Shown here one piece after another: positions 2,925-11,972 of a DNA stretch of 64,000 bases (position 1 is the stretch's first letter; each line of letters starts with the position of its first letter). Source of the DNA: Celeribacter indicus. GTDB lineage: Bacteria; Pseudomonadota; Alphaproteobacteria; Rhodobacterales; Rhodobacteraceae. Both the position numbers and the translations under genes were made by a program. Location of the stretch: positions 406,001 through 470,000 of the forward strand of contig NZ_CP004393.1 in assembly GCF_000819565.1 (NCBI RefSeq), given 5' to 3'. The notes under the pieces were generated by a model. The model ran no database searches, had not been told where the DNA came from, and saw nothing but the letters and a program-made list of their open reading frames with translations.

Positions 2925-5460
2925 TGACGATGCGACCCGGCACGACGATGAGCTTTTTGGGCTGCCCGCCCTCGAGCGCCCTCTGCACAGCTTCGTTCGC
3001 CAGAACCAGCTTTTCAACCTCTTCCTTCGGCATGTCCTTCGGCACGGTGATCTCGTCGCGCCGCTTGCCGTTGATCTGGATCGGAAGCGTCACGCTGTCC
3101 TCCACGAGCATCGCCTCGTCGGGCACGGGCCAGGGCGCCTGCGCAACGAGCCCCTCGCTGCCGAGCATGGCCCACATCTCCTCCGCGAGATGCGGCGTCA
3201 TCGGCGACATGAGCTGTGCCATGGTCCTGAGCGCGAACCGTTTCGCCTCGCGCCCCGCCTTCGATTTCGACACGGCGTTGGTAAAGGCGTAGAGCTTCGC
3301 GATGGAGCTGTTGAAGCCGAAGCTCTCGATGCCCTGGGTCACCTCGAACATCGCCTTGTGCGTCGCGCGCAAGAGATCCTCGTCGCCTTCGCCTGTCTCC
3401 GGCATGCTCTCCAGCTCGGCGGCCAGCCGCCAGACGCGGGCGAGATGCCTGTTCGCGGCTTCGGCGCCCGCCGCGGTCCATTCCACATCGCGCTCGGGCG
3501 GGCTGTCGGACAGGACGAACCAGCGCGCGGTGTCCGCGCCGTATTGTTCGATGATCGCGACCGGATCGACGACGTTGTTCTTCGATTTCGACATCTTGGC
3601 CGAAGGCACGATCTCCACCTCTGCGCCGTCCTTGAGATAGCCCTTGCCGTCGCGCAGCTCGACCTCTTCGGGATAATGGTATTTCGGCCGCCCGTCTGCG
3701 CCGCGGGTCTGATAGATCGCGTGGGTCACCATGCCCTGCGTGAACAGCGCGTTGAACGGCTCGCGGGACTTGTCCGGCAGATGCCCGGTCTCGTTCATCG
3801 CGCGCGCGAAGAAGCGCGAATAGAGCAGGTGCAGGATCGCGTGCTCGATCCCGCCGATATACTGGTCGACGTTCATCCAGTATTCCGCGTCCTCCTTCAC
3901 CGTCGGCGTGTTCGCGTGTGGCGCGGTGAAGCGGGCGTAATACCACGAGCTGTCGACGAAGGTGTCCATCGTGTCCGTCTCGCGCAGCGCCGCGCCGCCG
4001 CATTGCGGGCAGGTCGTGTTGCGCCAGGTCGGGTGACGATCGAGCGGATTGCCGGGCACGTCGAACGTGACGTCCTCGGGAAGCCGGACGGGAAGGTTCT
4101 CCTTCTTCTCCGGGACGACGCCGCAGCTCTCGCAATGGACCACCGGGATCGGGCAGCCCCAGTAGCGTTGCCGCGACAGGCCCCAGTCGCGCAGGCGGAA
4201 TTTCGTCACGCCATGGCCGACGCCGTTTGCTTCGCAGAAATCGACCGCCGTCTCGACGCCCTCCTCGCCGGTCTGGATCTCGTCGCCGGCAAAGCCGCGG
4301 ATGTAGCGGACCTTCTCTGACTTGAGCGGGACGAAGGCTTCCTTCGTGTTCAGCTCGCCTTCGACGGGTTCGAAGACATAGGTGATCGGCAAGCCATATT
4401 TCGTTGCAAAATCGAAATCGCGCTGGTCGTGTGCCGGGCAGCCGAAGATCGCGCCGGTGCCGTAATCCATCAGGATGAAATTCGCGATATAGACCGGCAG
4501 CTTCCAGGACGTGTCGAACGGGTGGCGCACGGTCAGCCCGGTGTCCAGCCCCAGCTTCTCGGCCTTCTCGATGGCTTCCTCGGTGGTGCCGCCCTTGCGG
4601 CATTCCTCGCAGAAGGCGGCAATCTCGGGATCGTCTGCGGCGAGTTTCCTTGCCAGCGGATGATCGGAGGAAATGCCGACGAAGGAGGCGCCCATGAGCG
4701 TGTCCGGGCGGGTGGTGTAGACCTCCACCCGGTCCGCGCCCTCCGGCCGGTCGATCAGGGAGAAGGCGAATTGCAGGCCGCGCGATTTCCCGATCCAGTT
4801 GCGCTGCATCGTCTTGACCTTTTCGGGCCAGTTGTCGAGCCCGTCGATCGCGTCGAGCAGATCCTCGGAATAGTCCGAGATCTTGAAGAACCACTGCACC
4901 AGTTCGCGCCGTTCCACCGGTGCGCCGGACCGCCAGCCGCAGCCGTCGATCACCTGCTCGTTGGCGAGCACGGTCATGTCCACCGGATCCCAGTTCACGG
5001 TGGCGTTTTTGCGATAGACCAGCCCCTTGTGCAGCATGTCGATGAACATCGCCTGTTGCTGGCCATAATATTCGGGATCGCAGGTTGCGAATTCGCGCGT
5101 CCAGTCGATCGAGAGGCCAAGCGGCTTCATCTGTTCGCGCATCGTGTCGATGTTCTGGTAGGTCCAGGTGCCGGGATGCCCGCCGGAGGCCATCGCCGCG
5201 TTTTCCGCCGGCATGCCGAAGGCGTCCCAACCCATCGGGTGCAGCACGTTATGACCGGTGGAGGATTTGAACCGGGCCACCACGTCGCCCATCGTGTAGT
5301 TGCGCACATGGCCGATATGGATGCGACCCGAAGGATAGGGAAACATCTCGAGCACGTAGTATTTCGGCTTCGTCTCGTCGCGTTTCGCGAGGAAGACCTC
5401 CGCCTCGGTCCAGGCGGTCTGCCATTTCGGTTCGATCTCACTCGGCGCGTAGCGGCTCAT
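2911..5460 (-). CDS. leuS: Leucyl-tRNA synthetase
   Basis: The 849-residue class I synthetase charges tRNA-Leu in the cytoplasm. The HIGH signature is HIGH at residues 48-51 and the KMSKS loop is intact at 622-626. The editing (CP1) domain lies between them, and the zinc-type insertion shows CESCG and CPQCG pairs. Length is normal for bacterial LeuRS. The start at 5460 is preceded by AAGGA. The gene heads the leuS-lptE-holA run and follows a terminator-like hairpin of the upstream DUF3576 gene, which suggests its own promoter between 5461 and 5480 or read-through. Confidence 0.97.
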
Positions 5461-10090: not shown

Positions 10091-10777
10091 ATGGCCACTC
10101 TGAAAAAGATTCTTCTCGTCGACGACGACGACGACTTGCGCGACGCGCTGAGCGAGCAGCTCGTGATGACCGAGGATTTCGACGTGTTCGAAGCCGACAG
10201 CGGTGCGGCGGCGATGGAGAAATCGAAGGACGGGCATTACGACCTGATCATTCTCGACGTCGGACTGCCCGATACCGATGGCCGCGAGCTGTGCAAGCGG
10301 TTGCGCAAGTCGGGGGTCAAGTCGCCGATCCTCATGCTCACCGGCCACGATACTGATGCGGATACGATCCTCGGCCTCGATGCGGGGGCGAACGACTATG
10401 TGACGAAGCCGTTCAAGTTCCCGGTCCTGCTCGCCCGGATCCGCGCGCAGCTGCGCACGCATGAACAATCCGAGGCGGCCGTCTTCCAGCTCGGGCCCTA
10501 TACGTTCAAGCCGGCGCAGAAGATGCTCGTCACCGCGGATGACAAGAAGATCCGCCTGACGGAGAAGGAGACGAACATCCTGAAGTTCCTCTACCGCTCG
10601 ACCGAGGGGGTCGTGCCGCGGGACGTGCTGTTGCACGAGGTCTGGGGGTACAACGCGGGGGTGACCACGCACACGCTCGAAACCCATATCTACCGCCTGC
10701 GCCAGAAGATCGAGCCCGATCCCTCTAACGCGCGGCTCCTGGTGACGGAATCGGGCGGCTACCGGCTCGCCTCGTGA
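10091..10777 (+). CDS. cenR: OmpR-family response regulator, CenR-like
   Basis: The 228-residue regulator has a receiver domain (residues 5-120) with an acidic pocket at DDDDD (11-15), phosphoacceptor D56, Thr in LMLTG and Lys in VTKPFK. It is followed by a winged-helix DNA-binding domain ending HTLETHIYRLRQKIE. Sequence and length match CenR, an essential alphaproteobacterial regulator of envelope processes. No sensor kinase lies nearby, as is usual for cenR. AAGGAGG precedes the ATG. The 3' end runs directly into the first of two tandem candidate small-RNA units. The CenR call is by family resemblance only. Confidence 0.88.
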   Translation: MATLKKILLVDDDDDLRDALSEQLVMTEDFDVFEADSGAAAMEKSKDGHYDLIILDVGLPDTDGRELCKRLRKSGVKSPILMLTGHDTDADTILGLDAGANDYVTKPFKFPVLLARIRAQLRTHEQSEAAVFQLGPYTFKPAQKMLVTADDKKIRLTEKETNILKFLYRSTEGVVPRDVLLHEVWGYNAGVTTHTLETHIYRLRQKIEPDPSNARLLVTESGGYRLAS

Positions 10778-10908
10778 GATTTTTCCGACCTGCGGGAACC
10801 TGTCCGGCGCCCGCGGGTTGAGACGACAGAAGCCCTCGCGCATCGGGGTAGGATGCGCATGTCCCTCGTTCCCGACTTTGCCCGGCTCCCAGGAGCCGGG
10901 CTTTTTTT
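10774..10908 (+). ncRNA. Candidate small RNA, tandem unit 1
   Basis: This intergenic unit lies just after the cenR stop. It has a 7-bp hairpin GCGCATC (10838-10844) / GATGCGC (10852-10858) with loop GGGGTAG, an unpaired linker containing TCCCTCGTTCC, and a strong terminator hairpin with 10-bp arms at 10880-10901 followed by seven T. A second diverged copy follows at once. The retained pairing and linker in both copies argue for an RNA rather than a protein. It may be cut from the cenR 3' UTR or have its own promoter. I do not recognise it as a named family. Confidence 0.6.
10880..10908 (+). terminator. Terminator of unit 1 (and of cenR)
   Basis: Arms GCCCGGCTCC (10880-10889) and GGAGCCGGGC (10892-10901) are perfectly complementary and separated by CA, followed by TTTTTTT. 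It would terminate plus-strand transcripts from cenR and/or the small RNA. Confidence 0.85.
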
Positions 10909-10947
10909 CGCGCTTTTCCGCGCGCGGGCCCTGCCGTCGTGGCGGGA

Positions 10948-11076
10948 GTGAGATTCGGCGGAACCTTCCGGCCGCTCGCGGGTTGGAATGTCGAAGCCCC
11001 GGCGCATCGGGGGACGGATGCGCATTCCCTCGTTCCGATACTCACTTTGCCCGGCTCCCAGGAGCCGGGCATTTTT
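10948..11076 (+). ncRNA. Candidate small RNA, tandem unit 2
   Basis: This is the second copy of the unit. Matching blocks are GTGAGATT, GGAACCT, TCCGGC, CGCGGGTTG, AAGCCC, the hairpin GCGCATC (11002-11008) / GATGCGC (11017-11023), the linker TCCCTCGTTCC, ACTTTGCCC and an identical terminator hairpin (11049-11070) with five T. The 5' part and the loops have drifted while stems and linker are kept. It ends about 105 bases before the exonuclease III gene. Together with unit 1 it fills the only gene-free stretch over 300 bases that lacks a known RNA gene. Confidence 0.6.
11049..11076 (+). terminator. Terminator of unit 2
   Basis: The same 10-bp GCCCGGCTCC/GGAGCCGGGC stem as in unit 1, followed by A and five T (11072-11076). 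It isolates the xth gene from upstream transcription. Confidence 0.82.
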
Positions 11077-11183
11077 CTTGGAGATTCCATCGGCATTCTT
11101 CGCGGGGGAGCTTTGCCGGATTCCGGGTGGCATCGCGGCGCAAGGCCGATTAGGCTCTGCGCGCCACGAACCGAGGAGCCCAC

Positions 11184-11972
11184 ATGCCGTTCACTCTCGC
11201 CACCTGGAACATCAATTCCGTGCGTCTGCGCGAACCGATCGTGTGCAGGCTTCTCGAAGAGGAGGGGCCCGACATCCTGTGCCTCCAGGAATGCAAGTCG
11301 CCGGTGGAGAAGATCCCGGTGGAGCGTTTCCGGGCCCTGGGCTACACCCAGATGGTCGCGCGCGGGCAGAAGGGGTACAACGGCGTGGCGATCCTGTCGA
11401 AACTGCCGCTCAGGGAGGTGGGCGCCTATGACTATGCCGCGCTGGGCCATGCGCGGCATATCGCGGCCGAGCTCGAGAACGGGGTGGTGATCCACAATTT
11501 CTACGTGCCCGCAGGCGGCGACGTGCCGGATCGCGAGGTGAACGAGAAGTTCGGGCAGAAGCTCGACTACCTTACGGAGATGCGCGATGCCTTCCACGCG
11601 GTCGCGCCGGAGAGGTCGATCCTTGTCGGAGACCTGAACATCGCGCCGCGCGAGGACGACGTGTGGAACCACAAGCAGCTTCTGAAGATCGTGTCGCATA
11701 CGCCGGTCGAGGTCGAGCATCTGGGCGCGGCGCAGGACGCGGGCCGGTGGGTGGACATCACGCGGCAGGACATTCCCGAAGGGCAGCTCTATTCCTGGTG
11801 GTCCTATCGGGCGAAGGACTGGGACGCGGCCGACAAGGGCCGGCGGCTCGATCATGTCTGGGCGACGCCCGACATCTCGAACGCGGGGCACGGCTCGCGC
11901 ATCCTGCGGACCGCGCGCGGATGGGAGCAGCCGTCGGACCACGCCCCGGTCTTTGCGAGCTTCGATCTTTAA
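11184..11972 (+). CDS. xth: Exodeoxyribonuclease III
   Basis: The 262-residue enzyme belongs to the ExoIII/APE1 endonuclease-exonuclease-phosphatase fold. Visible motifs are TWNINSVRLR at the start, LCLQECK (metal-binding Glu), GYNGVAILSK, LVGDLNIAP and a C-terminal SDHAPVFASF with the catalytic His. It cleaves DNA at abasic sites and trims 3' ends in base-excision repair. GAGGAG precedes the ATG by a normal distance. It is transcribed alone or with the thioredoxin-TPR gene downstream, 76 bases away. Confidence 0.95.
   Translation: MPFTLATWNINSVRLREPIVCRLLEEEGPDILCLQECKSPVEKIPVERFRALGYTQMVARGQKGYNGVAILSKLPLREVGAYDYAALGHARHIAAELENGVVIHNFYVPAGGDVPDREVNEKFGQKLDYLTEMRDAFHAVAPERSILVGDLNIAPREDDVWNHKQLLKIVSHTPVEVEHLGAAQDAGRWVDITRQDIPEGQLYSWWSYRAKDWDAADKGRRLDHVWATPDISNAGHGSRILRTARGWEQPSDHAPVFASFDL

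Follow-up and report, generated by a model that had tools for sequence, protein, structure and literature searches.

What kind of RNA occupies the space between cenR and xth of Celeribacter indicus, and what switches it on, was the question raised by the 64,000-nucleotide stretch of DNA analysed here (the window). A reading made earlier from the letters alone (hereafter the sequence-only reading) had described a tandem pair of units sharing a stem, a linker and a terminator with a T-run, and had suggested that they may be a new pair of small RNAs, of a kind it did not recognise. Two paralogous tandem units do lie in this gap (10795-10908 and 10960-11076), with a mean column identity of 79% in their alignment. 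The features of the locus are as follows, in window coordinates.

10091..10777, plus strand: gene of a cenR-type response regulator of the OmpR family (ORF of 228 aa with Response_reg and Trans_reg_C domains), the host gene of SorX in relatives
10795..10819, plus strand: putative EcfG-type promoter of unit 1 (match to the motif GGAAC-N16-GGTT), 17 nt past the cenR stop codon
10827..10908, plus strand: unit 1 RNA, with a predicted 5' end about 7 nt past the -10 element; Rfam SorX match at 10831-10908, match to covariance model R1 at 10813-10909 (58.6 bits)
10833..10848, plus strand: second helix S1 of unit 1, CCCU (10833-10836) with GGGG (10845-10848), interleaved with S2 as a predicted pseudoknot
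10838-10844/10852-10858, plus strand: stem S2 of unit 1, 7 bp, GCGCATC/GATGCGC
10862..10872, plus strand: C-rich linker core of unit 1, TCCCTCGTTCC, the predicted pairing region, with the same letters in unit 2
10880..10908, plus strand: intrinsic terminator of unit 1 (stem 10880-10901, then a T-run), the first strong terminator past cenR
10960..10984, plus strand: putative EcfG-type promoter of unit 2 (match to GGAAC-N16-GGTT), 3' of terminator 1
10992..11076, plus strand: unit 2 RNA, 5' end predicted; match to model R1 at 10979-11078 (61.5 bits), no Rfam SorX match reported
10997..11012, plus strand: second helix S1 of unit 2, CCCC (10997-11000) with GGGG (11009-11012), interleaved with S2
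11002-11008/11017-11023, plus strand: stem S2 of unit 2
11026..11036, plus strand: C-rich linker core of unit 2, TCCCTCGTTCC
11048..11076, plus strand: intrinsic terminator of unit 2 (stem 11048-11071, then a T-run)
11184..11972, plus strand: xth-type exonuclease III gene (ORF with an Exo_endo_phos domain), a neighbour outside the RNA locus

The name cenR for the first gene is presumed from the earlier reading and from knowledge of the family. The parts of the unit layout described before are all present, although the EcfG-type promoter motif and the interleaved second helix had been overlooked. The 22-nt terminator hairpin is indeed identical in both units, whereas the terminator stem, previously given as an identical 10 bp, has that length only in unit 2, unit 1 having 9 pairs. 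The predicted RNAs folded better than dinucleotide shuffles, with z scores of -2.11 (unit 1, 7 of 200 shuffles as good) and -3.35 (unit 2, 1 of 200), and longer stretches of the two units -2.84 and -1.75, respectively. A promoter scan revealed no sigma-70-like promoter in the cenR-xth gap, and unit 2, lying behind the terminator of unit 1, should need a start of its own. A weak terminator-like hairpin of 5 pairs at 10766-10778 overlaps the cenR stop codon, 5' of promoter 1.

Conservation was followed in the genus with covariance model R1, built from 12 relatives with the window sequences excluded. The model found both units (58.6 and 61.5 bits), with the next best place in the window at 14.3 bits, and at E 0.001 it matched nowhere else in the 4.97-Mb genome. 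In a genus set of 20 genomes including that of the window, searched with CenR and judged by a linker motif within 420 nt, a SorX-like RNA stands behind cenR in 13, each with the linker core TCCCTCGT or TCCCTCTC; tandem copies were seen in the window's genome only. Over the 14 units aligned within the genus, pairing of the 7-bp stem reaches 99%, with one compensatory pair (A-U in 8 and G-C in 6 sequences). The cells with two-sided changes outnumbered those in all 500 shuffles, whereas the number of pairs concerned (2) was no more than in the shuffles (mean 1.7). In taking the units for a tandem pair of conserved small RNAs, each ending in a terminator, the sequence-only reading was right. Beyond the genus, 80 named loci of CenR homologues were compared (81-95% identity; the closest is Celeribacter persicus, 95% over CenR), and 66 of them hold a SorX-type linker within 420 nt past the cenR stop codon.

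These loci also bear on the reading that the units are a mere double terminator of cenR or a leader of xth, without any trans-acting RNA. The strong terminator at the end of each unit and the position of both 5' of xth would agree with it. However, the stems, the linker and the promoter are all kept, and among 97 linker-bearing loci behind cenR (repeat genomes counted) an xth motif was present within 1.2 kb in 49 and absent in 48, the RNA staying with cenR. An xth leader was rejected on this ground, and we find the reading as a whole scarcely credible.

At least three other genera of the sample also have tandem SorX pairs behind cenR; three such pairs (L121, L122 and L123, in genomes G148, G182 and G022 of three other genera) have canonical linkers. 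Duplication of SorX has probably happened more than once. At three further loci a second element follows SorX behind cenR (L052:3944-4003, L054:3846-3905 and L075:3926-3985), with the same linker and a T-run and without the SorX hairpin.

SorX of Rhodobacter sphaeroides is reported to originate from the 3' end of RSP_0847, a cenR-type gene; RNase E processes it from the mRNA, it depends on Hfq, and it targets potA. It also serves as an example of a 3'-UTR-derived sRNA in a review (PMC9438474). Like SorX, the units sit directly behind a cenR/ompR-1-type gene and consist of a 5' hairpin, a single-stranded C-rich linker and a strong terminator. Unit 1 matches the Rfam SorX model RF02784 at E 6.5e-8 with 38.7 bits, below the gathering score of 46.6, and no match of unit 2 was reported by this model. 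Within the genus, 10 of the 13 RNA-bearing loci (the window and 9 of 12 relatives) score 33.8-44.9 bits, so that even the best relative stays under the gathering score; the remaining three, all from genomes without NepR (see below), gave no SorX match at E 0.5. Across the family, SorX matches were found in 188 of 198 genomes and exceeded the cut-off in 156, most of them holding more than one match, so that some lie outside the cenR locus.

The units also differ from SorX. The linker of the units reads UCCCUCGUUCC and that of SorX ACCUCCCUGUUGGAC; the 13 RNA-bearing genus loci have UCCCUCGU or UCCCUCUC, not the canonical form. Besides standing in two copies here and below the RF02784 gathering score, the units have EcfG-type promoter motifs of their own, instead of or besides release from an mRNA, and a second helix that is absent from the Rfam structure line. 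Because the units stay under the gathering score and lack the canonical linker, they are called SorX-type and not SorX members. Judged from position and layout, they are positional counterparts of SorX, duplicated and diverged, and not a new family; the idea of an unrecognised pair gives way to the SorX match of unit 1 and the shared place behind cenR. It is very improbable that an unrelated sRNA family came to look like SorX by convergence. The diverged linker, the scores below the Rfam cut-off and the three NepR-negative relatives without a SorX match at E 0.5 would favour such an origin, while the same place behind cenR, the same layout, the same interleaved helix and the gradation of SorX scores among relatives, which reaches 44.9 bits, argue against it.

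Other sRNA families were compared as well. CcsR1-4 and suhB are alphaproteobacterial sRNAs with C-rich stretches, in CcsR also tandem; the units differ in lacking the CCUCCUCCC loop and in their host gene. The sequence-only reading had held that the units are not CcsR, which we take to belong to the RF00519 (suhB) group, and it was right: their RF00519 scores are 26.1 and 19.5 bits, with a gathering score of 41. The suhB, betaproteobacterial and Burkholderia sRNA families gave sub-threshold scores only and were rejected, the scores being attributed to shared terminator and C-rich letters. GsrN of Caulobacter (PMC5869019) is an sRNA with an exposed stretch rich in C and a promoter of the EcfG(SigT) type, to which the C-rich linker and the putative promoters of the units correspond. 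According to the same article, GsrN typically adjoins the sigT/ecfG-phyR locus, with C. crescentus itself as the exception, whereas the units (C1:416.8-417.1 kb) lie about 1.08 Mb from the general stress response locus (nepR at C1:1501 kb). Section 14 of that article lists EcfG-driven sRNAs for Caulobacteraceae and Rhizobiales, and its main text contains no word beginning with Rhodobacter.

A third SorX-like match of the genome lies elsewhere (L127; G000:C1:1574415-1574473, minus strand; 40.3 bits). Its linker is canonical (ACCTCCCTGTTGGACTTGG), its 5' hairpin differs, and it stands, by eye, 5' of a purL-like gene; this match may hold the old SorX pairing role.

The second half of the question concerns the start of transcription. 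GGAAC-N16-GGTT precedes each unit. Measured against the Caulobacter SigT consensus given in PMC5869019 (GGAAC and CGTT, spacing 15-17), the -35 element and the spacing fit, and the -10 element GGTT differs from CGTT by one base. The motif by itself is not uncommon (6 matches in the window, 3.1 expected); the evidence lies in its place. Of the 13 genus loci that bear the RNA, 10 have the motif 5' of the linker (shuffle mean 0.09, maximum 2), and it stands at the place of unit 1's promoter in 10 of the 20 genus genomes, that of the window included. In the family it precedes the linker in 9 of 66 loci (shuffle mean 0.36, maximum 4).

The window's genome encodes phyR, nepR, an ECF-type sigma gene beside nepR and a HWE/HisKA_2 kinase in one cluster, and GGAAC-N17-CGTT is present on both strands of the phyR-nepR gap. 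Near this cluster, an EcfG-type motif at L126:3960 (minus strand) overlaps the start of a DUF883_C-domain protein, and another at L126:3997 (plus strand) lies 5' of a 57-aa membrane protein at 4074-4247, which resembles DUF1328.

NepR was used as the marker of the stress system, the sigma gene itself being read in the window's genome only. Among the RNA-bearing genus loci, the motif was found in 10 of 10 with NepR and in 0 of 3 without (Fisher p 0.0035); four further genus genomes have NepR and lack the RNA. Among 49 named loci, drawn from the 80 and chosen to include every promoter-bearing locus, NepR accompanied 10 of 10 with the motif and 23 of 39 without (p 0.02). This count does not treat as promoters a motif inside the gene that lies downstream in L026 or the second motif of L031, and it includes L051, which has a degenerate linker and is not one of the 9 of 66. 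A pattern of the promoter plus the canonical SorX linker, blind to the diverged linker of the window's genus, matched in 13 of 394 family genomes (reversed control, 1). Twelve of the matches lie directly behind the end of cenR, and all 12 genomes have NepR, against 188 of 394 overall (p 1.2e-4); the thirteenth lies elsewhere, in a genome without NepR, and looks like chance.

The named-locus, genus and family samples overlap. When they were combined into 82 rows (after four rows were taken out because identical letters or contig places marked them as repeat genomes), NepR was present in 29 of 29 with the motif and in 29 of 53 without. The 29 NepR-positive rows without the motif imply that control by EcfG is not general. 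Controlled by the tree, the association comes down to 2-3 independent pairs on supported branches with p of 0.5-1, which is too weak; the CenR tree itself is poorly resolved, with 5 of 76 inner branches well supported, and demands at least 19 changes of promoter state. R. sphaeroides, where SorX is made by processing, is itself reported to have a PhyR-EcfG locus with a weak NepR of 25% identity. Overall, the motif and its link with NepR suggest that EcfG may transcribe the units.

A different origin of the RNAs was considered, namely that both units are only fragments of the cenR mRNA 3' UTR cut by RNase E, with the GGAAC motif unused. This is how SorX arises in R. sphaeroides, according to the published account, and three NepR-negative genus genomes carry the RNA without the motif and with little space past the stop codon. 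We consider it unlikely, as the strong terminator of unit 1 separates unit 2 from cenR and the motif is kept in 10 of 10 NepR-positive genus loci with the RNA. The three NepR-negative genus members (L096, L097 and L100, in genomes G199, G198 and G200) lack the promoter stretch and keep the RNA close to the cenR stop; two of them have the extended linker core TCCCTCTCCCTCGT.

Alternatively, the promoters might be served by an ECF sigma factor other than EcfG. GGAAC-like -35 elements are common to several ECF groups, and the -10 element reads GGTT rather than CGTT. We regard such a factor as quite unlikely, since the motif-bearing cenR loci were NepR-positive throughout the three overlapping samples (10, 10 and 12) and the same motif recurs in the phyR-nepR gap of the window's genome. 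Transcription by EcfG itself is the start proposed for both units.

The start signal is not the same throughout the family. Of the 66 family loci, 18 have a TTGA-N6-TCAA box, presumably of the FNR type, 5' of SorX (mean of 0.10 and maximum of 2 in shuffles); one of the 18, L031, has both this box and the EcfG-type motif. The box spans many genera and is strongly kept in the gap behind cenR in L008, L011, L014, L018, L021, L026 and others. A pattern of box plus linker matched in 51 of 394 genomes (reversed control, 0), counted by the pattern and not by position relative to cenR, at least two of them (G046 and G378) looking like chance. None of the 51 is among the 12 genomes with the EcfG-type pattern, and NepR was present in 19 of the 51 vs. 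12 of the 12 (p 5e-5).

The second helix concerns the form in which the linker may be offered. Pairing between the bases that immediately precede the hairpin stem (CCCC, CCCG and others) and the first bases of the loop (GGGG, CGGG and others) is possible in most sequences of the family; in unit 1 this gives three G-C pairs and a G-U. From 101 extracted 5' elements, the fragments or false seeds L027_1, L077_1 and L063_2 were left out, and 9 of the remaining 98 have no S2. Pairing was scored per sequence instead of in fixed columns, the 5' strand being out of register in the family alignment. At least three G-C pairs' worth was reached by 86.5% of the 89 sequences, by 10% of shuffles and by 84.5% of flank swaps; being equalled by the swaps, this level is explained by the kept C and G tracts. 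At least four pairs' worth was reached by 56% of the 89; 1000 flank swaps, which leave the relatedness of the sequences in place, averaged 33% and did not exceed 46%. The mean S1 score, 10.4, does not leave the range of the swaps (mean 9.9, maximum 10.8).

In 88 sequences the inner S1 pair is C-G in 37, G-C in 30, U-G in 3 and U-A in 1, with 17 non-standard under a fixed reading; the outer position next to CCC/GGG forms a standard pair in 24 and is unpaired in 64. Variants seen by eye include UCCC/GGGA (L094, L095, L128), UCCG/CGGA (L129) and ACCG/CGGU (G141). In the genus set of 14, the outer pair is C-G in 5, G-U in 2, U-A in 2 and unpaired in 5, and where it is unpaired the C tract can pair one place lower. 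The changes on both sides of S1 among the family sequences predict an H-type pseudoknot; a pair of alternating hairpins would account for them as well. The searchable literature, outside of which most subscription papers lie, offered no description of a SorX pseudoknot, of SorX in the general stress response or of an EcfG-driven sRNA in Rhodobacteraceae.

As to targets, the sequence-only reading suggested that they may be partly redundant. The 11-nt linker core common to both units makes an overlap plausible. The complement of this core occurs at five sites in the genome, two of which are the units themselves, and the other three are not at clear gene starts; the L144 site is followed after 23 nt by an ATG, which falls within a longer and questionable open frame. 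The best potA-like gene (L132:1376-1402) has GAACGAGG at its ribosome-binding site, with 8 nt of complementarity to both linkers. A pairing at least as good was seen for 11% of 47 background starts with unit 1 and for 30% with unit 2. The neighbours of L132 make orthology to PotABCD doubtful and its pairing is not exceptional; it stays a weak lead. Neither the genome-wide search for complements nor the search for potA-like genes established a target. The duplication may increase the dose, or the targets may be divided between the copies.

Taken together, we think it probable that the units are duplicated and diverged counterparts of SorX, each started by EcfG, in which a pseudoknot presents the C-rich linker to targets. 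Under stress, PhyR would take NepR off the sigma factor EcfG, which would start each RNA from its own GGAAC-N16-GGTT promoter. Each transcript would measure about 80-85 nt and end at its own terminator, and unit 1, like SorX in R. sphaeroides, might also be released from the 3' end of the cenR mRNA. The H-type pseudoknot would form in the 5' part and present UCCCUCGUUCC, and this linker, probably together with Hfq, would pair with its target mRNAs at G-rich ribosome-binding regions.

In a wider sense, SorX-type RNAs may form a pseudoknotted sRNA module in the Rhodobacteraceae that has repeatedly switched its start signal between cutting from the cenR mRNA, EcfG and an FNR-type activator, the EcfG form having been duplicated here and changed in its pairing region to become an sRNA arm of the general stress response; this proposal could as readily hold as fail. 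If relatives use their own stress promoters, the same RNA has moved between being a by-product of an mRNA and being an independent gene. If this is true, the origin of sRNA genes from 3' UTRs would be directly testable within one family, even within one genus.
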